From Roseivirga sp. (GTDB lineage: Bacteria; Bacteroidota; Bacteroidia; Cytophagales; Cyclobacteriaceae), in assembly GCA_021404565.1 (NCBI GenBank), contig JAAWWF010000026.1, positions 310,001-374,000 of the forward strand: a stretch of DNA of 64,000 nucleotides. Direction: 5' to 3'. Shown one piece after another: positions 35,716-44,809 of the stretch. The notes under the pieces are model-generated. The model saw nothing but the letters and a program-made list of their open reading frames with translations, was not told where the DNA came from and did no database searches. The number at the start of each line of letters is the position of its first letter. The first letter of the stretch is position 1. Made by a program: the position numbers and the translations under genes.

Positions 35716-38238
35716 ATGACAAGATCTGGCAAATCCCCCTGGAGGTTTTTGCTGAGCGTGGGTTTGGCTGCTGTAATGCTACTGGCATTGGGCAATCAGG
35801 CTGAGGCTCAGAGGAAAAAGAAAAACAAAAAGAATTCCAAGACTGAGCAGCCTGCTCAAAAACCTAAACCGAAACCACCCAAGAAAGGTGCGCTTCAGCC
35901 TTATAGTAAAGTAATTACAAAAGATGCTAAATCTGACGAAGGTCTCTTTACCGTACACGAAATTGACGGTAAGTACTTCTTCGAAATAGCTGACTCCCTC
36001 ATGGGCAGAGACATGCTGATGGTGACAAGAATCGCTAAGACCGCTGCTGGTATCGGTTTTGGTGGTGGCAAAACCAACACACAGGTCCTCAGATGGGACA
36101 AAATTGATAAGAAGATTCACCTGAGAATTATTTCTTACACCATTACGGCTGCCGATAGCTTACCTATCAATGAAGCAGTTGAGAACTCAAACTTTGCGCC
36201 CATCCTCGCTTCTTTCCCTATCAAGTCGTTGTCAAAAGACTCGGCTGGTGTTGTGATTGAGGCTACCAATCTGTTGACAAAAGATGTTAAGCCATTAGGC
36301 CTTCCACAATTCAGAAGAACACAGTACAGAGTTTCAAGACTTGATGCGGAACGTTCTTATGTATCTCGTGTAAGCAGCTATCCTGAGAATATTGAGCTGA
36401 GACATGTAAAAACATATTTCGCGAGCAACTCTCCATCGAGTTCTGCTGATGGCTCTATTTCGGTAGAAATGAGTAACTCCATGATCCTGCTTCCAAAAGT
36501 ACCAATGCAACGCAGACTCGCTGACAGAAGAGTAGGTTGGTTTGCCAGAGGGACTACCGATTATGGCCTGGACGTGCAACAGTCTAAGAATGTAAGATTC
36601 CTCGATCGCTGGAGACTGGAAGTAAGGCCAGAAGATGAGGCTAAATTCCGCAGAGGAGAACTGGTTGTTCCTAAGAAACAAATTGTATACTACATTGACA
36701 GAGCTACTCCTAAGAAATGGGTGAAAGCGATCAAAGATGGTATTGAAGATTGGCAGGTAGCCTTTGAGGCCGCTGGTTTCAAAGATGCGATTATTGCTAA
36801 AGAGGCACCGACCCCGGAAGAAGATCCTGATTGGAGTCCTGAAGATGTAAGATACTCCACGGTAAGATACCTGGCTTCGCCAATACCTAATGCCAATGGC
36901 CCTCACGTATCAGATCCTCGTTCAGGTGAAATACTGGAGAGTGATATCAACTGGTACCATAATGTAATGACGCTTTTGAGGAGATGGTTCTTCGTTCAAA
37001 CTGCCGCTATTAATCCTGATGCTCAGTCTTCTGAGTTCAAAGACGAGGTGATGTCAAGACTGATTCGCTTTGTTTCTTCTCACGAAGTAGGTCATACACT
37101 CGGTTTGCCTCACAACTTTGGTTCTAGTGTGGCCTATCCGGTAGATTCTTTGCGCTCACCGAGCTTTACGAAGAGAATGGGAACAGCCCCGTCTATCATG
37201 GACTACGCGCGTTTCAACTACATTGCTCAGCCGGAAGACAAAGGAGTAGCTTTAATGCCAGATGTCGGTGAGTATGACAAATATGCCATCGCCTGGGGTT
37301 ACCGTCCTATTTTGGGTGCTGATTCTCCTGAGGCCGAACTGCCAACACTGAGAAAGTGGATTGATGACAAGAAAGGCAACCCATTGTATCGATATGGCCG
37401 TCAGGGCAATGCCAATGACTATACTGCACAGAGTGAAGATTTAGGTGATGATGCCATGAAAGCCAGTATGTATGGTATTAAAAACCTGAAAGTGATCATG
37501 AATAATCTTCAGGAATGGACTTATGCCGAGGGTGGTGACTACTCTGAACTGAATGAGATGTACGGTGAGGTTCAAAGTCAGTTCAACCGCTATATGGGCC
37601 ATGTTGGTCGCTACGTAGGTGGAGTGAAAGAGAACTATAAGAGTACGGATCAGGAAGGTGTTGTTTATACACACGCTCCTAAAGCCAAGCAAAAAGAAGC
37701 TGTTAAGTTTATCAACGATAACCTGTTTAGCACTCCTGAATGGATGTTGGATGAAGAGATCATCAACAGGCTCAGAGACTACGGTACGGTAGAAAGCATG
37801 AGAAGCATGCAAGTGAGAACTTTAAACTCACTCCTCGAATGGAGAAAACTTGGTAGAGTAATTGAGAATGAGGCCATGAACGGATCTGATGCCTACGGTA
37901 TTCTGGATTTATTCTCTGATGTGAGAAACGGTGTATGGTCTGAGCTGAGAAACGGCAGAACGATTGATACTTACAGAAGAAACCTGCAGCGTGCTCATAT
38001 CGAAAGACTGGAACTTTTAATGACTGGAGAAATGCCTCCTATTCCATTCCAGTTCAGGCAGTTCTTCGGACCCGGTATCGATGCAAGCCAGTCTGACATT
38101 CGAGCGGTAGTACGTGGTGAGTTGAAGACAATGCTTTCAAGAATCAGAGCCGCGGTTCCAAGAACCAGAGACAGAATGAGCAAGCTTCACTTAGAGGATG
38201 CGATTGAAAGGATCGACAATATCCTTGATCCTAAGTAA
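35716..38238 (+). CDS. Secreted zinc metalloprotease, DUF5117/DUF5118/DUF4953 type
   Basis: The 840-residue protein begins with a signal peptide (about 1-32, ending NQAEAQ) and a short Lys-rich, Pro-containing linker. A DUF5118-type strand region follows (LFTVHEIDGKYFFEIADSLM), then DUF5117, and a catalytic domain with HEVGHTLGLPH, where His456, Glu457, His460 and His466 form a zincin site (HExxHxxGxxH) with the Met-turn-like PSIMDYARF beyond it. The C-terminal domain corresponds to DUF4953. This three-part secreted metalloprotease is typical of Bacteroidota. The substrate is unknown. It is followed by a strong terminator hairpin. Confidence 0.93.
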   Translation: MTRSGKSPWRFLLSVGLAAVMLLALGNQAEAQRKKKNKKNSKTEQPAQKPKPKPPKKGALQPYSKVITKDAKSDEGLFTVHEIDGKYFFEIADSLMGRDMLMVTRIAKTAAGIGFGGGKTNTQVLRWDKIDKKIHLRIISYTITAADSLPINEAVENSNFAPILASFPIKSLSKDSAGVVIEATNLLTKDVKPLGLPQFRRTQYRVSRLDAERSYVSRVSSYPENIELRHVKTYFASNSPSSSADGSISVEMSNSMILLPKVPMQRRLADRRVGWFARGTTDYGLDVQQSKNVRFLDRWRLEVRPEDEAKFRRGELVVPKKQIVYYIDRATPKKWVKAIKDGIEDWQVAFEAAGFKDAIIAKEAPTPEEDPDWSPEDVRYSTVRYLASPIPNANGPHVSDPRSGEILESDINWYHNVMTLLRRWFFVQTAAINPDAQSSEFKDEVMSRLIRFVSSHEVGHTLGLPHNFGSSVAYPVDSLRSPSFTKRMGTAPSIMDYARFNYIAQPEDKGVALMPDVGEYDKYAIAWGYRPILGADSPEAELPTLRKWIDDKKGNPLYRYGRQGNANDYTAQSEDLGDDAMKASMYGIKNLKVIMNNLQEWTYAEGGDYSELNEMYGEVQSQFNRYMGHVGRYVGGVKENYKSTDQEGVVYTHAPKAKQKEAVKFINDNLFSTPEWMLDEEIINRLRDYGTVESMRSMQVRTLNSLLEWRKLGRVIENEAMNGSDAYGILDLFSDVRNGVWSELRNGRTIDTYRRNLQRAHIERLELLMTGEMPPIPFQFRQFFGPGIDASQSDIRAVVRGELKTMLSRIRAAVPRTRDRMSKLHLEDAIERIDNILDPK

Positions 38239-38269: not shown

Positions 38270-38299
38270 AACCCTGGCTGAATGGCCGGGGTTTTTTTA
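38270..38299 (+). terminator. Rho-independent terminator of the metalloprotease gene
   Basis: AACCCTGGC (38270-38278) pairs with GCCGGGGTT (38285-38293), with one G-T pair and a six-base loop. A run of Ts then begins at 38292. It lies 31 bases past the stop codon. Confidence 0.75.
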
Positions 38300-39556
38300 T
38301 AAAATGGGCTTAAGCCTGAGCTCCTTCCTTGTCAGCTCTCCATCTCTTCGAACGATAAGAACAAGGGTTCGTCCTCTTGGACCTCTGAAAATGGCATTGA
38401 TGTCTGTAAGGCTGTAAAAGAAAGCGGGTTTGCCATCAATGGCGATAATCTCATCGCCCTTTTCCAGGCCTGCTTTTACCGCAGGAGAATCCTTGATTAT
38501 ATCCGTAACAAAATAGGAGTTAAGCTCCTCTCCCACGGCCAGTACATTGAGCCCGGCTGAGTTGAACTTAAAGCTCTCACTAAAGCCACTCGCCTTTTTC
38601 AGGTAGATGACTTTTTCGTGATAATCAAAAATCACCCTGAACCGGGAGAGTATCTCAGAGCCTACGGTACCGTGTCTTGGGTCTGTACCTAATTCCTTAT
38701 TCCCCCTTTTCGAGACAAGCCAGTTTTCCGGAAAAGATGTGGTAACCTTTTTAAACTTGAACTTACCCAGGTTAAATCGCTTTACCCGGCCTATTTTTCC
38801 TTCAATAACACCTACAAGTGCCCGGCCAAGGGTATGATCGACCGTTTTTTTAGGTAGGTGAATGTTATCGTGTTTGTCTGCATCCAGAAACAGAGCGCTA
38901 CTGGCACCAGTATCTATTAAAAGCTTTACGTCAGCTGTTTTTTGCTTTTCCTGCTTTACTGTCGCTTTTACAAAAGGGCGGAAATTTTCAAGGGTAATGG
39001 GTATTTTACGAAAGCCTCTTGGCGCCTTAAAATCTTTAGGGTTGTAGAGCTTAAGCAGCTTTTGTTCATAGTCAACCTCAACCACAAATCGGTTGAAGAT
39101 TTCAGAGCCCAGAATACCATGGGCCTGCACTCCAATTACATTTTCGATATCAATGAAGTTTTCCTGAAGCACCAGCATTGATTGCTGTACCCCACTAACT
39201 CCGGGGAAATTAATGCTGAGATTATTGGCCACCCATAAGTCGGTTACCTTGTTGCCATCAGCTGCATACACGGGTACAGTGCGTGCATTAACCAGGTTGT
39301 TTTCTCCTATTACCCATTTGTCAAATACCATACCCGACTCAGAGCCGGTATCCAGAATAAAGTTAAAAGGTCCTTCCCCGTTGATTTTTATGGGGACAAT
39401 AATCAGGTTGCTCTCTCTGATAAAGCTGAGCTCTACCACTTTGGCACCGTCATCCAGATCAAAGCCCAACGGATTTTGAGCCAGTGCGCAAACGCTGAAT
39501 AGTGAAAAAAATATGGTGATTAATGACCTCAAAAGAATGGTGGTGTATATGTTCAT
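38297..39556 (-). CDS. Retropepsin-like aspartic protease with two DTG motifs and a PDZ domain
   Basis: The 419-residue protein has a signal peptide (about 1-27, ending CALAQ). Two aspartyl-protease half-domains carry active-site FILDTGSE (Asp69) and LLIDTGAS (Asp215), and a PDZ domain occupies about 330-410 (SPAVKAGLEKGDEIIAIDGK). In both halves the strand after the DTG and the GILGSEI-type turn (residues 147-153; TVGSEI later) are present. It is a paralogue of the protein at 21017-22177, with the same order of domains. It is likely periplasmic. The stop lies at the edge of the terminator of the convergent metalloprotease gene. Confidence 0.88.
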   Translation of the reverse strand: MNIYTTILLRSLITIFFSLFSVCALAQNPLGFDLDDGAKVVELSFIRESNLIIVPIKINGEGPFNFILDTGSESGMVFDKWVIGENNLVNARTVPVYAADGNKVTDLWVANNLSINFPGVSGVQQSMLVLQENFIDIENVIGVQAHGILGSEIFNRFVVEVDYEQKLLKLYNPKDFKAPRGFRKIPITLENFRPFVKATVKQEKQKTADVKLLIDTGASSALFLDADKHDNIHLPKKTVDHTLGRALVGVIEGKIGRVKRFNLGKFKFKKVTTSFPENWLVSKRGNKELGTDPRHGTVGSEILSRFRVIFDYHEKVIYLKKASGFSESFKFNSAGLNVLAVGEELNSYFVTDIIKDSPAVKAGLEKGDEIIAIDGKPAFFYSLTDINAIFRGPRGRTLVLIVRRDGELTRKELRLKPIL

Positions 39557-40156: not shown

Positions 40157-43100
40157 ATGAAAGTATTTCTGACCTCACGTGCATTCCTGATACTCAGCTT
40201 TTTATGGCTGTTGAGTATTCCCGCTTACGCTTTCTTTCAAAACGCTACTGCCAGGGTTAAAACCAAGTACGAATTTACAGACACACGCATCAGTGAGGCG
40301 GACACGCTCCTTAAAAAACGTCAGTACCAGGAAGCCCTGGATGCCTACCAAAAAGCCTATGATACCTACGAGGCTGAAAGCTTCTATGAGGGTATGGTTT
40401 ATGCGAAGGAAAGGATGGGTAGGACATATAGATCCTTAGGTGAAGACAGTTTGTCTAAAATCACTTATCAGGCAGCGGCTTCTTTGTCGAGAGAAAAACT
40501 TGGACCAAACCATATATTAGAGAGCAAGGCTTATTTGAATAATGGGATAAGGGCTCATAGGAGAAGGTCATATATTGAAGCGTCTAAAATAATGGATTCC
40601 GCAATGTGGATTTATGAGTCTGCCAGTTCTCATGACTCTTCCGTATTTCGCACAATTACGGATTTTAAGTTCTATACATACTATTATTCAAGACTCAGTG
40701 GAGACACACTTGTGAAGTACCTAAATGAACGGGGTAGAATCTTTGAAAGATCTGGATCTCGAATGAGAGAAAATATAACATTAATGAGCGATTATTCGCG
40801 AGCGTTTTATAGAATAGGAGATTTTCAGAAAGCAGCAGCTTATGCCTTAGAGGGGGTTAGGTTAAATGAAGCGAATTTAGCAAATCAACAAATTGCCACG
40901 TATACTGAATCACTATTTAATCTCGCAAGAGCGTTGGATTCTCAAGCTGAATATGACCGGGCATTGAGCGTTGCGGATAAACTAATAAGCTACACAGAAG
41001 CAAATTCTCCCAATGCTAGGAATTTAATAAGCTTTTATAATTTGAAAGCGGTAATTCTGAATGGCTTAGAAAGATACAATGAAGCCGCTCAAGAGTTTTT
41101 GAGAATTATTGAGATACTTGAGTCAGAGAATGATGATTCTCCTTTTTATAGAAGCACGATAATGAATCTGGGCGTTTGTTATCAGCTAATGGAGGATTTT
41201 GAAAAATCTGAAACTTATCTTCGGAATGCCTTAGAAAGGGATAAGGAGATCTATGATCGCTTTGATACCCCTTTATCCATTAAGTACAAATACTTAGGTC
41301 AACTCTTTGATGCAAAAGAGAAATATGGACTGTCCTTTAACTATTATGATTCAGCACTTCGAAGCAGAGTGGAGGGTTATAGAGGAGCTGCATTGGATTT
41401 CCCTACCAATACTGAATTTAATGGCATTTATGAGGTTTTGGATATTCTTAAGAGGAAGCAAATAGCTCTGGAAAAACTCTACAGTCATACGAATAGTGAT
41501 AGCACGGAACTTTTGATTTCTTCAATAGAACATGCAGAGAAGACTCATGAATTTTTAATGACAAATAGGGAGGAGTTGCAAGCCGCAAAAGGTAAGTTGT
41601 TTTTGTCAGAGAACTTCAAAGAACTCTATGAAAGTGGAATCAACTCTACTTACCTTCTCTATGAGAAAGGAATCGATCAACCTGCCTTATTTGAAAAGAT
41701 ATTTAAGCTAATTGGCCAGAGCAAGTCAATATTGTTTTTAGAACAATCTGGAGAATTAGGGCAAATCAGAGGTGGCGAATTGTCAGTGGAGATTAGAGAG
41801 AAATACTACAAGGTTAAGACTCAAATTGAAACGTTGGAACAGGAGTTTGAGAGACTCAATGATGAGATTGCAACAAATGACTCTATTAGAATTATCAATT
41901 CTGAGTTAATGGGTTTGAAGTCAGAACTAAAACAACTGTTAGAGGGTGTTTCGAAGGAAGTTGTACATGGACATGACAGTCAAATAACCTACTCACAAGA
42001 GGATTTGAAGGATATTAGACGGAACTTAGCCTACAGACCAGAAAGGGCCGTGTTAGAGTACTTTATGGGGGATGATTATATTTATATGCTCTATATGGCA
42101 AAGGATCAAGAGTTAATTCGTAGAATTGAATTTTCCGACTCCCTCGAATTAACAATATCGAGACTTACGAATGTCGTTGGAGAAAGGCCTCAAATCACAA
42201 ATTACAAGAAGCAACTCAACCAATTTGAAAAAGACGCATCATTTCTGTACGCGCAACTTATTGGTAGTACATTCAATAACGCTAACAATATTAGTCAAAT
42301 TACTGTAATACCTGATGACGTTCTCACTCGCTTACCTTTTGAGGTGTTAATATTCGAGGAAGTTAAAAATGCAAAGAATTTCTACGATCTCGATTTTCTT
42401 ATTAAAAGGTACTCCATCAACTATGCCCTGTCCTCAAAACAGATTAGAAGTACTAAAACTAAGAGAGTCGCTAAAAAGGAGCTGTTTGGCGTGGGCTACA
42501 GTGGCAATACTGGCTTCAATGGGGAATTTATTAGGTCAGAGTTTGGAGCTCTTCCAGGGACAGAAGAAGAAATACTGTTCCTTCAGAATAATCTTCGGGG
42601 CGATTTTTTTCTCGGAGAGTCAGGAAGCAAACCTATATTTATTGATAAAGCTAGAGATTATGATGTTTTGCATTTAGCGGTACATGGACGGTCAGACAGT
42701 TTGGATATTTATAAATCAAGCTTAATCTTTAATGGAGAACAAAACAACATTTTGAAAACGAGTGATCTTTATGTTGCAGACCTTAAAGCCAGGGTAGCTA
42801 TTTTGAGCGCTTGTGAAAGTGGGGTTGGTAAAATTAATAAGGGAGAGGGTACATTTAGTATTGCGCGAGGCTTTGCTCTAGTCGGTGTCCCATCAATAGT
42901 AATGAGCCTGTGGAAAGTAAATGATCAGTCTTCAGCGAGGCTCATGGTAGATTTGCATAAGAAGATGAAAGAGGGGGAATCAGTGGATTTGGCTCTAACA
43001 AATGCTAAACGGGACTTCTTAAATAACTCTGATCAGTATACTAGTCATCCATATTATTGGTCAGCCTTCGTTTCATTGGGAGAAGAGGTTGAAATGCAGG

Positions 43101-43189
43101 AGAAAGGATTCCCTTATATCGAAGTTGGTATACTTCTTATTACTGTCATTCTTCTATTACTGATTAGACAAAAAAAGAGAAGGGACTAA
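40157..43189 (+). CDS. Membrane-anchored TPR-CHAT protease (caspase-like)
   Basis: The 1010-residue protein has an N-terminal signal (LILSFLWLLSIPAYAF), about ten tetratricopeptide repeats over residues 45-420 (for example YQEALDAYQKAYDTYE, FEKSETYLRNALERDKE), and a helical linker. A CHAT domain fills about 690-985, with the catalytic dyad His843 in HLAVHGRS and Cys886 in ILSACESGVG, then GFALVGVPSIVMSLWKVND. A C-terminal membrane helix (about 987-1004) ends in RQKKRRD, so the protease domain should face the periplasm. The gene looks more A+T-rich than its neighbours. It is convergent with a sigma/anti-sigma-like operon, its likely partner. Confidence 0.9.
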   Translation: MKVFLTSRAFLILSFLWLLSIPAYAFFQNATARVKTKYEFTDTRISEADTLLKKRQYQEALDAYQKAYDTYEAESFYEGMVYAKERMGRTYRSLGEDSLSKITYQAAASLSREKLGPNHILESKAYLNNGIRAHRRRSYIEASKIMDSAMWIYESASSHDSSVFRTITDFKFYTYYYSRLSGDTLVKYLNERGRIFERSGSRMRENITLMSDYSRAFYRIGDFQKAAAYALEGVRLNEANLANQQIATYTESLFNLARALDSQAEYDRALSVADKLISYTEANSPNARNLISFYNLKAVILNGLERYNEAAQEFLRIIEILESENDDSPFYRSTIMNLGVCYQLMEDFEKSETYLRNALERDKEIYDRFDTPLSIKYKYLGQLFDAKEKYGLSFNYYDSALRSRVEGYRGAALDFPTNTEFNGIYEVLDILKRKQIALEKLYSHTNSDSTELLISSIEHAEKTHEFLMTNREELQAAKGKLFLSENFKELYESGINSTYLLYEKGIDQPALFEKIFKLIGQSKSILFLEQSGELGQIRGGELSVEIREKYYKVKTQIETLEQEFERLNDEIATNDSIRIINSELMGLKSELKQLLEGVSKEVVHGHDSQITYSQEDLKDIRRNLAYRPERAVLEYFMGDDYIYMLYMAKDQELIRRIEFSDSLELTISRLTNVVGERPQITNYKKQLNQFEKDASFLYAQLIGSTFNNANNISQITVIPDDVLTRLPFEVLIFEEVKNAKNFYDLDFLIKRYSINYALSSKQIRSTKTKRVAKKELFGVGYSGNTGFNGEFIRSEFGALPGTEEEILFLQNNLRGDFFLGESGSKPIFIDKARDYDVLHLAVHGRSDSLDIYKSSLIFNGEQNNILKTSDLYVADLKARVAILSACESGVGKINKGEGTFSIARGFALVGVPSIVMSLWKVNDQSSARLMVDLHKKMKEGESVDLALTNAKRDFLNNSDQYTSHPYYWSAFVSLGEEVEMQEKGFPYIEVGILLITVILLLLIRQKKRRD

Positions 43190-43200
43190 AAGCCCCTTCC
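43171..43200 (-). terminator. Terminator of the sigma / anti-sigma-like operon
   Basis: Read on the minus strand, GAAGGG pairs with CCCTTC (43194-43199 with 43179-43184) around a loop rich in T, and TCTTTTTTT follows at once. It overlaps the 3' end of the convergent CHAT gene and lies about 34 bases beyond the 43233 stop. A GT-rich tract (43206-43222) sits between. Confidence 0.62.
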
Positions 43201-43232
43201 CTAGTGTGTGTATGTGTGTATATGGAATTCAG

Positions 43233-44246
43233 TTAATCAGTTTTAGCCATAATCACGGCTAAGGTCTTTTTGCTTTTTGTTTTTATAACAATAAACTCTA
43301 CCCTGTCTCCAACATTCAACCCATCAATAGCGAAATCATTGAAATATTTAAATAGAAAGCCATCATCCGAAAGAACGGTTCCAAATTGACTTTTTCTTAA
43401 GCCTATCTCCTCAGTTCCATTCGGTGAGTCAGTTTCCGTATCCGGTATTTGTTCATAAGTTTCGATTTCTCCGGTTCCTCCAGAATCAGATAGGGTTAAT
43501 TCCATATCAATGAGCACACTTTTAGCGTCCTTAGCAAAGCTGGAATTAGATTTACTTGCAGAGAGTAGGGCCAAATTACCAATGGCTTCTTCCTCTGCTC
43601 CATCCTTAAACAGAGTCAGAGCCAAATACCACTGAGCTTGTTCTCGCAACTCGGTAAAGCTGTTCATCACAGTATTAAGATTATTCTTCGCTACATCGAG
43701 ATTTCCGGCTTCAAAGTTGGCGATGCCGGAGTAGAGATAGTTCATGGCCGATTTTTCAGAAGCCAATAAATTCTCAAAAAGATTAGCGGAAGTGCTGTAG
43801 TCCTTGATATCATATGCGTTGTAAGCCCTTGCTGATAGCGTGACAATTTCGATATCCCCACTACGCTCCGTACTATTCAAATTAATGTACGGTTCATAGT
43901 AGTTAGCAACGATTTCCTCTCCCGTCAGCGCCCCAGTGCCTCCGGAAAATGCAAAGTAACTTACAGTAGCAACGATAAGAAGGCTTGCAGCAATTGATAC
44001 AAGTCGTTTCATTGATACGTTAATTTTGGTTGTTTCTTGGTTGGTAAGGTTGGCCTCAGCATTCTGAAGAATGTCCAAAGCCCTGATACGAGAAGTTTCC
44101 TTCACCGCATCACGGATGAGTTTCATATCGCGAAACTCTTGTTCGAAAGAAGGATCTTGCTGCAGCTTCTCATTGAAGAATTGCAACTCATCTTTATCCA
44201 GCTTTCCCTGAAAGTATTTTTCTATTAAATGGAAATTTTGGTCCAC
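43233..44246 (-). CDS. Membrane anti-sigma-like protein with TPRs and an OB-like C-terminus
   Basis: The 337-residue protein starts with an acidic helical region (YFQGKLDKDELQFFNEKLQQ) like the cytoplasmic part of Bacteroidota anti-sigma factors. One membrane helix lies at about 84-102; with MKR before it and an acidic stretch after, the C-terminus should be outside. Outer residues 115-250 contain TPR-like helices (YNAYDIKDYSTSANLFENLL, AMNYLYSGIANFEAGNLDVA). The last ~55 residues (QFGTVLSDDGFLF, GLNVGDRVEFIVIK) look like a small OB/cold-shock-type barrel. The gene follows the sigma gene by 20 bases, in the usual sigma/anti-sigma order. Confidence 0.75.
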   Translation of the reverse strand: MDQNFHLIEKYFQGKLDKDELQFFNEKLQQDPSFEQEFRDMKLIRDAVKETSRIRALDILQNAEANLTNQETTKINVSMKRLVSIAASLLIVATVSYFAFSGGTGALTGEEIVANYYEPYINLNSTERSGDIEIVTLSARAYNAYDIKDYSTSANLFENLLASEKSAMNYLYSGIANFEAGNLDVAKNNLNTVMNSFTELREQAQWYLALTLFKDGAEEEAIGNLALLSASKSNSSFAKDAKSVLIDMELTLSDSGGTGEIETYEQIPDTETDSPNGTEEIGLRKSQFGTVLSDDGFLFKYFNDFAIDGLNVGDRVEFIVIKTKSKKTLAVIMAKTD

Positions 44247-44266
44247 TTCTTTTTAACGTTTTTCTA

Positions 44267-44809
44267 TTACTCTAAATATTTCCTGATCCGTTGGATGCAC
44301 TTGTATTTCAAATTTCTTACTGTGCCTCCGTTTTTGTAGTTCATCACATCAGCAATCTCATCGGCCGATAAGTTGTTGAAGTAAAAAAGCTCTAACAGTT
44401 CTTTGCAGGGATCTCCTATTTCGGTCAATGCCTTTCTGATTTTTTCAATCTTTTGTGTTTTGATAAAATCAACATCGCTTTCAAGTTCGATCAGCTCATC
44501 ATTCTCTTCGATTGTATCTGTATAAGTCACTTTCATCTTCCGTCTGGAGTCGTTGAGCAACTTATTTTTACCGATAGAGTATAGATAAGTCTTGATACCT
44601 GCTTCATTCATGTTTTCAAATGAGCCTTCTACAACGTTTTCGTAAAAGGAGAGGATGGTGTATTGATAAATATCTAAAGCTTCCTCCTTCGTACACTTAT
44701 GTGTATTGGTGATCCAAGCCAGGAAGCTAGTGCGAAACCTTGCATAAACTTCTTCCAGTGCTTTTGAATCTCCCTTCCGCAGACGAAGGATGAGAGAGCT
44801 TTCACTCAT
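44267..44809 (-). CDS. ECF-type sigma-70 family RNA polymerase sigma factor
   Basis: The 180-residue protein has a sigma-70 region 2 (about 10-80; LEEVYARFRTSFLAWITNT, then EEALDIYQYTILSFYENV). Region 4 lies at about 125-175, with LLELFYFNNLSADEIADVMN and GTVRNLKYKCIQRIRKYL as the helix-turn-helix that reads the -35 element. There is no region 1 or 3, as in extracytoplasmic-function factors. It heads a two-gene operon with the membrane anti-sigma-like protein, facing the CHAT protease gene. AT-rich sequence upstream contains no clear Bacteroidota primary promoter, so self-dependent transcription is possible. Confidence 0.9.
   Translation of the reverse strand: MSESSLILRLRKGDSKALEEVYARFRTSFLAWITNTHKCTKEEALDIYQYTILSFYENVVEGSFENMNEAGIKTYLYSIGKNKLLNDSRRKMKVTYTDTIEENDELIELESDVDFIKTQKIEKIRKALTEIGDPCKELLELFYFNNLSADEIADVMNYKNGGTVRNLKYKCIQRIRKYLE

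Follow-up and report, generated by a model that had tools for sequence, protein, structure and literature searches.

In Escherichia coli, the sigmaE/RseA/DegS/RseP pathway frees an extracytoplasmic function (ECF) sigma factor by proteolysis: the membrane anti-sigma factor is cut outside the membrane, and the sigma factor is released after a site-2 cleavage. This regulated intramembrane proteolysis is summarised in a report (PMC10028731) on a second route, in which the tetratricopeptide repeat (TPR)-CHAT protease Csx29, RNA-activated through Cas7-11, cleaves Csx30 and relieves the inhibition of an ECF sigma factor (CASP-sigma). Related parts recur elsewhere: CalpL/CalpT/CalpS is a three-gene switch of protease, anti-sigma factor and ECF sigma factor whose protease is of the Lon type and activated by cA4 (PMC11417357); the ECF54 group has CHAT, subtilase and carboxypeptidase neighbours, and the proteolytic control proposed for it is treated as mainly actinobacterial (PMC8999054); and EACC2/caspase neighbourhoods join a caspase-fold protease, an ECF sigma factor and a DUF1822 TPR protein, with other domain sets and no membrane anti-sigma factor described in the accessible part of that source (PMC8195603). 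Here we analyse a three-gene locus at positions 40157 to 44809 of a 64,000-nucleotide stretch of Roseivirga sp. (contig JAAWWF010000026.1; hereafter the window), taken from an 8.57-Mb draft genome of 98 percent completeness, in which an exported, membrane-anchored TPR-CHAT protein faces an ECF sigma factor and a one-helix anti-sigma-like protein. Among the open-access titles and abstract openings searched, none describes a periplasmic CHAT/anti-sigma pair; the ECF reclassification (10.1093/nar/gkaa1229), outside that scope, may cover this sigma group and its neighbours.

On balance, and with modest confidence, we favour the reading that the locus is a three-gene signalling module in which the CHAT protein would act as the periplasmic site-1 protease of the anti-sigma factor and an M50 protease would complete the release of sigma. 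In such a module, the ECF sigma factor would stay bound to the anti-sigma factor's cytoplasmic N-domain until the anchored TPR-CHAT protease, activated by an envelope signal (probably via its TPRs), cuts the anti-sigma factor after a conserved loop Arg (R128), some 25 residues beyond the membrane. Once the TPR part is lost, the remaining stub would become a substrate of a site-2 protease of the RseP type, and sigma would be freed after this site-2 cleavage, most plausibly in that order. At the level of sequence, the linkage, the co-inheritance, the intact dyad, a predicted same-side topology, the conserved Arg and an M50 protease gene in the genome (PF02163, E 1.2e-64) are all evident. If the reading is right, ECF sigma control by site-1 proteases extends to the caspase fold, the many TPR-CHAT proteins anchored in the membrane in these genomes gain a substrate and a readable output, a testable cut site is supplied (an Arg, mostly before Gly or Ser, just outside the membrane), and the Csx29/Csx30/CASP-sigma logic exists outside CRISPR.

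The CHAT gene (40157-43189, plus strand) encodes 1010 amino acids, beginning with a putative signal peptide (residues ~1-25, 40157-40231; a hydrophobic segment with an AYA end, its cleavage point placed by eye). TPRs above cut-off and a CHAT domain (residues 698-975, 42248-43081; PF12770 at 163 bits, cut-off 24) follow, with the dyad residues His843 (42683-42685) and Cys886 (42812-42814) located from CHAT alignments; by hydropathy and charge, a transmembrane helix starting at residue 985 and an RQKKRRD tail close the protein (43109-43189). Convergent with it across 43 bases lies the minus-strand gene, with a GTG start, of the 337-residue anti-sigma-like protein (43233-44246), predicted to comprise a cytoplasmic N-domain, a transmembrane helix (residues ~82-100, 43947-44003, by hydropathy) and a periplasmic TPR-like part, with the candidate cleavage site R128-S129 (43860-43865), picked out by alignments, in the juxtamembrane periplasmic loop. 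The ECF sigma factor gene, also on the minus strand (44267-44809; 180 amino acids), matches TIGR02937 at 66.8 bits (cut-off 42.9) and TIGR02985 below threshold. Pfam matches of the window anti-sigma factor are sub-threshold (TPR_16, E 0.0027; RseA_N, E 0.0096), and its N-terminus weakly matches the NCBIfam LIMLP_03685 anti-sigma model (E 1.8e-5, far below the model cut-off); its counterpart in another genome of the genus (G418) has TPRs above cut-off, and NF052375 (“anti-sigma factor”) is matched by 9 of 24 aligned anti-sigma factors, with a best E of 1.9e-9. The original prediction had described an exported, anchored TPR-CHAT protein with an intact His843/Cys886 dyad, convergent with a sigma gene and a one-helix protein, and the open reading frames (ORFs), both family matches and the alignments agree with it; the anti-sigma-like N-terminus and outer TPRs that it also proposed are upheld by the weak window matches taken with those of G418 and NF052375. 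A predicted pair of ECF sigma factor and one-helix membrane anti-sigma factor, as an RseA-type pathway requires, is therefore present. The predicted fold of the region around the 43-base gap is no more stable than that of shuffled sequences (z 1.09), and we thus claim no terminator there. A C-terminal extension of the window anti-sigma factor (residues ~285-337; 43233-43394, minus strand) is shared with the G418 counterpart and absent from the other 22 aligned proteins; strands appear in it only in a poor structure model.

Compared with the RseA pathway, the locus shares the ECF sigma factor, the one-helix membrane anti-sigma factor and a genome-encoded M50 site-2 protease, but the site-1 protease DegS has a trypsin fold with a PDZ domain whereas the candidate here is a CHAT protein of caspase fold, and the outer part of the anti-sigma factor is TPR-like, unlike that of RseA. 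The likeness to Csx29 extends to a TPR-CHAT protease, an ECF sigma factor with an inhibitor and, as proposed here, inhibition relieved by the protease. Searched against PDB sequences, the window CHAT domain retrieved five distinct entries (8d9f, 8d9g, 7x8a, 7y83 and 8d9h), all labelled CHAT domain protein, at E values of only 0.18-0.27; we take these to be Csx29 structures. The Csx29 dyad is H615/C658 (PMC10028731), with the same 43-residue spacing as H843/C886. Whereas Csx29 is activated by RNA and the accessible text of its report mentions no membrane anchor (PMC10028731), the window protein is anchored and stands without CRISPR: the RAMP family (PF03787) has no match in the draft genome and positions 30000-55000 of the window hold no CRISPR-like array. 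The Csx29 parallel drawn in the original prediction thus stands as a likeness of functional logic, with weak sequence similarity, and its phrase “without CRISPR” holds for the genome in respect of RAMP and for that part of the window in respect of arrays. A CRISPR-type system was rejected on the missing RAMP match, and the module is not a member of type III-E CASP: the logic is alike, and the place, the anchoring and the absence of CRISPR differ. On the inhibitor side, a profile of the 24 anti-sigma factors gave 161 PDB matches at E<=5, and the 60 listed are TPR or designed proteins by name, none of them named Csx30, a comparison in which Csx30 itself was not included.

Within the window's genome, seven of the 11 CHAT genes have a sigma gene and a one-helix anti-sigma gene at most 2 kb away, in convergent, divergent or codirectional arrangement. 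Each of the six anti-sigma matches (E<=0.01, counting that of the window itself) is a neighbour of a CHAT gene, as are eight of the nine sigma matches that rank highest. Patterns from the single window CHAT protein proved too specific for the genome contigs, with a short match at just one locus. At another locus (L038:8405-14819), a single CHAT gene is flanked by two sigma/anti-sigma pairs, one convergent and the other divergent, with the loop Arg in both anti-sigma factors.

The convergent three-gene locus is retained in G418, at 60 percent identity for sigma, 36 for the anti-sigma factor and 32 for CHAT (45 over the CHAT domain and 27 over the TPR part). Of 18 anti-sigma matches elsewhere in the order, three (L051, L055 and L065) have a CHAT gene beside the pair, and L066 has a CHAT gene with no anti-sigma ORF kept. 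Among sigma matches in the class beyond this genome, the 60 best include 13 with a CHAT gene in the stretch read (<=20 kb); all 13 fall within the 25 loci with a TPR-type anti-sigma factor (E<1e-20) and none among the other 35, most of which encode a longer anti-sigma factor. At L093 the TPR-type anti-sigma factor is not the partner of the sigma factor that fetched the locus, and its CHAT gene lies outside that stretch and was read as L149. Several contigs are short, so that misses in these sigma- and anti-sigma-side counts are upper bounds.

A complementary sample ranked CHAT proteins by similarity to the window CHAT domain and anchor, regardless of sigma. It drew on 76 rows outside the genome (excluding two close neighbours and every row ranked below), ten of which were uncounted as already covered from the sigma side (nine linked, L139 not); 40 were read, 39 of them anchored. 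Twenty-four of the 40 loci encode the anti-sigma factor and 23 a sigma factor beside it (L177 ends at a contig end), rising to 20 of 28 linked among loci >=17 kb long; the sigma factor is weakly matched in L165, L178 and L182, and the L182 anti-sigma factor has no TPR in Pfam. As a contrast set we took 20 CHAT proteins, one per genome, from a Pfam search of the order, 19 of them without a C-terminal anchor. Some sigma/anti-sigma pair occurs in four of these loci (L131, L133, L134 and L139), with anti-sigma factors that look different (E 4e-16 to 3e-8) and for which a Pfam scan of three showed no TPR. With classes defined by an anti-sigma profile trained on the CHAT-linked proteins of the window's genome, anchored CHATs (39 from the sample plus L147) exceed unanchored ones (19 from the contrast set plus L181) by 24/40 to 1/20 linked at E<1e-15 (p 3e-5), the single unanchored case being L133 at E 4e-16, and by 22/40 to 0/20 at E<1e-20 (p 9e-6). 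Conversely, 45 of 46 linked CHATs carry the C-terminal anchor (exception L121) and none of 25 contrast-set CHAT ORFs does (L147 left out). Membrane anchoring, as predicted from sequence, is thus a property that tracks sigma linkage, which is support that the original prediction had not foreseen; co-occurrence in other genomes, which it had named as a check, is seen in G418, in the sigma-side and CHAT-side samples and in the fresh loci described below.

Evolutionarily, the three proteins are correlated across 46 triples: the distance correlation is r 0.52 for CHAT and anti-sigma factor (permuted mean 0.33), 0.34 for CHAT and sigma (0.18) and 0.67 for sigma and anti-sigma factor (0.32), and none of 3000 permutations attained the observed value for any of the three protein pairs. 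Partners were shuffled within each genome, which removes species history as the cause. Judged from these distances, this shows that the CHAT, sigma and anti-sigma modules travel as units, which does not imply physical contact. A chance neighbourhood was rejected on the linkage counts in genome and sample together with this co-inheritance.

The columns of H843 and C886 hold His and Cys in all 27 CHATs first compared and in all 46 linked CHATs, and the active-site stretch of the window protein aligns with that of the PDB CHAT proteins. An N-terminal hydrophobic segment is present in 41 of 46 linked CHATs; net positive charge is higher behind the C-terminal helix than ahead of it in 44 of 45, and higher ahead of the helix than behind it in 45 of 47 anti-sigma factors. 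By these hydropathy and charge rules (rather than a trained topology predictor), the bias at both helices implies that the CHAT protein and the outer part of the anti-sigma factor should both be periplasmic, outside the inner membrane, as had been proposed from the window alone. Of the outcomes that the original prediction named as refuting it, neither the lack of a conserved neighbourhood nor a placement of the two domains on opposite sides is thus seen, and we regard its interpretation as supported in part.

Among the anti-sigma factors, the column that best separates linked proteins from those not seen linked holds an Arg, placed in the loop that joins the helix to the first TPR. This Arg is found (within two columns) in 45 of 47 linked proteins versus 10 of 23 TPR-type ones not seen linked, several of the latter on short contigs (Fisher p 1.8e-6; weighted frequency 0.93 versus 0.50). 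The Arg lies 24.8 +/- 2.5 residues past the helix, in a loop that is variable, indel-rich and otherwise little conserved, and the next residue is Gly or Ser in 39 of 45 cases versus 22 of 185 for other outer-part Arg; the window protein has R128, then S129. Both linked proteins without it (L072 and L091) have the most distant CHAT genes (5.6 and 5.9 kb), and each groups in the tree with an Arg-less protein not seen linked. With CHAT at most 4 kb away, a cut picked after the data were seen, the Arg is present in 43/43 linked proteins versus 12/27 others. Whether the genome has any CHAT match does not tell Arg-bearing from Arg-less proteins. Five fresh loci, for which the prediction was written before fetching, all encode a one-helix anti-sigma factor of the profile, with the Arg in register in four (L189, L190, L192 and L193; 23-27 residues past the helix, counted by eye); the L177 protein, outside the first set, also fits, with Arg-Ser. 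This near-invariant juxtamembrane Arg of linked anti-sigma factors looks like a cleavage site, again support that had not been anticipated. An acid at CHAT position 729 was considered as an Arg pocket (linked 0.91 versus 0.36) and set aside as a lead only: L072, the partner of an Arg-less anti-sigma factor, has the acid too.

An GTTACCTTTT-like element, a word chosen by eye, once the data were seen, among the sigma upstreams counted here, stands at >=9/10 bases upstream of 12/42 sigma genes against 0.7 expected, of 0/63 anchored CHATs against 0.5 and of 2/26 contrast CHATs against 0.2; at >=8/10 bases the counts are 28/42 (8.0 expected), 16/63 (7.8) and 10/26 (4.1). The sigma gene probably activates itself, and the pattern leans towards CHAT acting upstream of sigma, with weak control of CHAT still compatible. 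Words of the form 5-N-5 common to sigma and CHAT upstreams average 1.5 at the same locus versus 0.85 elsewhere. Another element conserved between the window and G418, TGGGTGAC, was rejected since it fails to extend to the linked set as a whole (at least 7 of its 8 bases in 3/42); at >=7 bases it occurs in 19/75 sigma genes of L051-L128.

These promoter counts bear on the converse arrangement, in which the CHAT gene is a target of sigma, the protease works on envelope proteins other than the anti-sigma factor and the neighbourhood is a regulon. CHAT is convergent or divergent to the pair in 40 of the 46 triples (18 convergent, 22 divergent, 6 codirectional) and therefore has its own promoter, and at the loose match of 8/10 bases the element is twofold over chance before anchored CHATs; at >=9/10 bases, however, it is enriched before sigma genes and absent before anchored CHATs, and an output role leaves the loop Arg unexplained. 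Two loci of the window's genome (L040:3139-12198 and L041/L042, contigs C18 and C34) do look like an output operon, the CHAT gene running on, on the same strand, into VKOR-thioredoxin, C39-peptidase ATP-binding cassette (ABC) exporter and HlyD-like genes (the exporter scanned in L040, HlyD in L041). These neighbours suggest export of a disulfide-bonded peptide, and the run-on is one hint of output or cargo; on the whole we consider CHAT as output improbable. We also hold it unlikely that CHAT and the anti-sigma factor instead form a sensory complex through the TPRs that both carry, with another site-1 protease making the cut and the Arg being structural. Such a complex would accommodate the Arg kept by ten of the 23 anti-sigma factors not seen linked and the 15 of 39 anchored CHATs without a pair in the stretch read, but a structural residue is hard to square with a loop so poorly conserved and so rich in indels, or with Gly or Ser so much more frequent behind this Arg than behind others; retention of the dyad in every linked CHAT also speaks against it, although unanchored CHATs also retain the Cys motif. 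Caspase-fold genes do occur in counter-invader loci (PMC8195603), and Myxococcus metacaspase operons with sigma-70 genes have been noted (PMC3501461), as a defence or cell-death system with an ancillary sigma factor would have it. For the three window proteins, however, PADLOC gives no match at E<=0.01, the draft genome has no RAMP match, and positions 30000-55000 of the window hold no CRISPR-like array. A periplasmic location is moreover unusual for phage sensing, and we regard defence as very improbable.

Several observations weigh against CHAT as the site-1 protease. Four of the 11 CHATs of the genome and 16 of 40 in the CHAT-side sample lack a pair within the stretch read. The Cys motif [AS]Cx[TS] is present in 25/25 unanchored CHAT ORFs of the contrast set, so that the dyad is no mark of linked CHATs. 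The loop Arg, given its retention in proteins not seen linked, may be partly ancestral or structural; the two groups compared are not phylogenetically independent and were in part delimited with profiles trained on linked proteins, six Arg-less proteins form one clade, and a tree test found 2 independent pairs on starred branches, too few to decide. In the fresh loci, Gly or Ser follows the Arg in only two of five (both Gly; the others Thr and Asn), and L191, a tight sigma-anti-CHAT operon, is a miss, its sole Arg standing at 31 residues and followed by Ala. Csx29 itself cuts Csx30 between residues 427 and 429, with no Arg rule stated in the accessible text (PMC10028731). Single-sequence structure predictions were poor (predicted local distance difference test, pLDDT, 48 for the anti-sigma factor and 31 for the CHAT domain). 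It is nonetheless tempting to extend the site-1 protease reading to widespread anchored periplasmic caspase-fold site-1 proteases, each with its own sigma factor and TPR anti-sigma factor in several parallel channels per genome, cutting after a juxtamembrane Arg and constituting a possible recruitment source of Csx29/Csx30/CASP-sigma, a tentative generalisation to which we give somewhat less than an even chance.

In a sister class of ECF sigma factors, the next gene encodes an anti-sigma-like protein with one helix and ~360 amino acids (L075:8593-9690, L077:8617-9690, L105:8689-9711 and comparable loci within the L069-L128 set). A trypsin/HtrA-like domain is fused to it in all three of these longer proteins scanned (Pfam Trypsin_2, E 1.9e-19 to 1.5e-21), which would make it an anti-sigma-like protein with a built-in protease, and no CHAT gene was found in the stretches read around these sigma genes. 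The unanchored CHATs of L131:10532-11777, L133:14304-15337 and L134:4716-6012 lie near another sigma/anti-sigma class, whose anti-sigma factors end in similar tails (YPLQRY, YPLDRG and YALKRY); the arrangement in L131 is convergent, with ~110 bases between. TPR-type sigma/anti-sigma pairs without CHAT in L076, L086 and L116 adjoin genes resembling outer-membrane/TonB-type receptors (by eye, from sequence starts). In the window, the CHAT gene is directly preceded by genes for a DUF5117/met-zincin protein (35716-38238) and an aspartyl protease with a PDZ domain (38297-39556).

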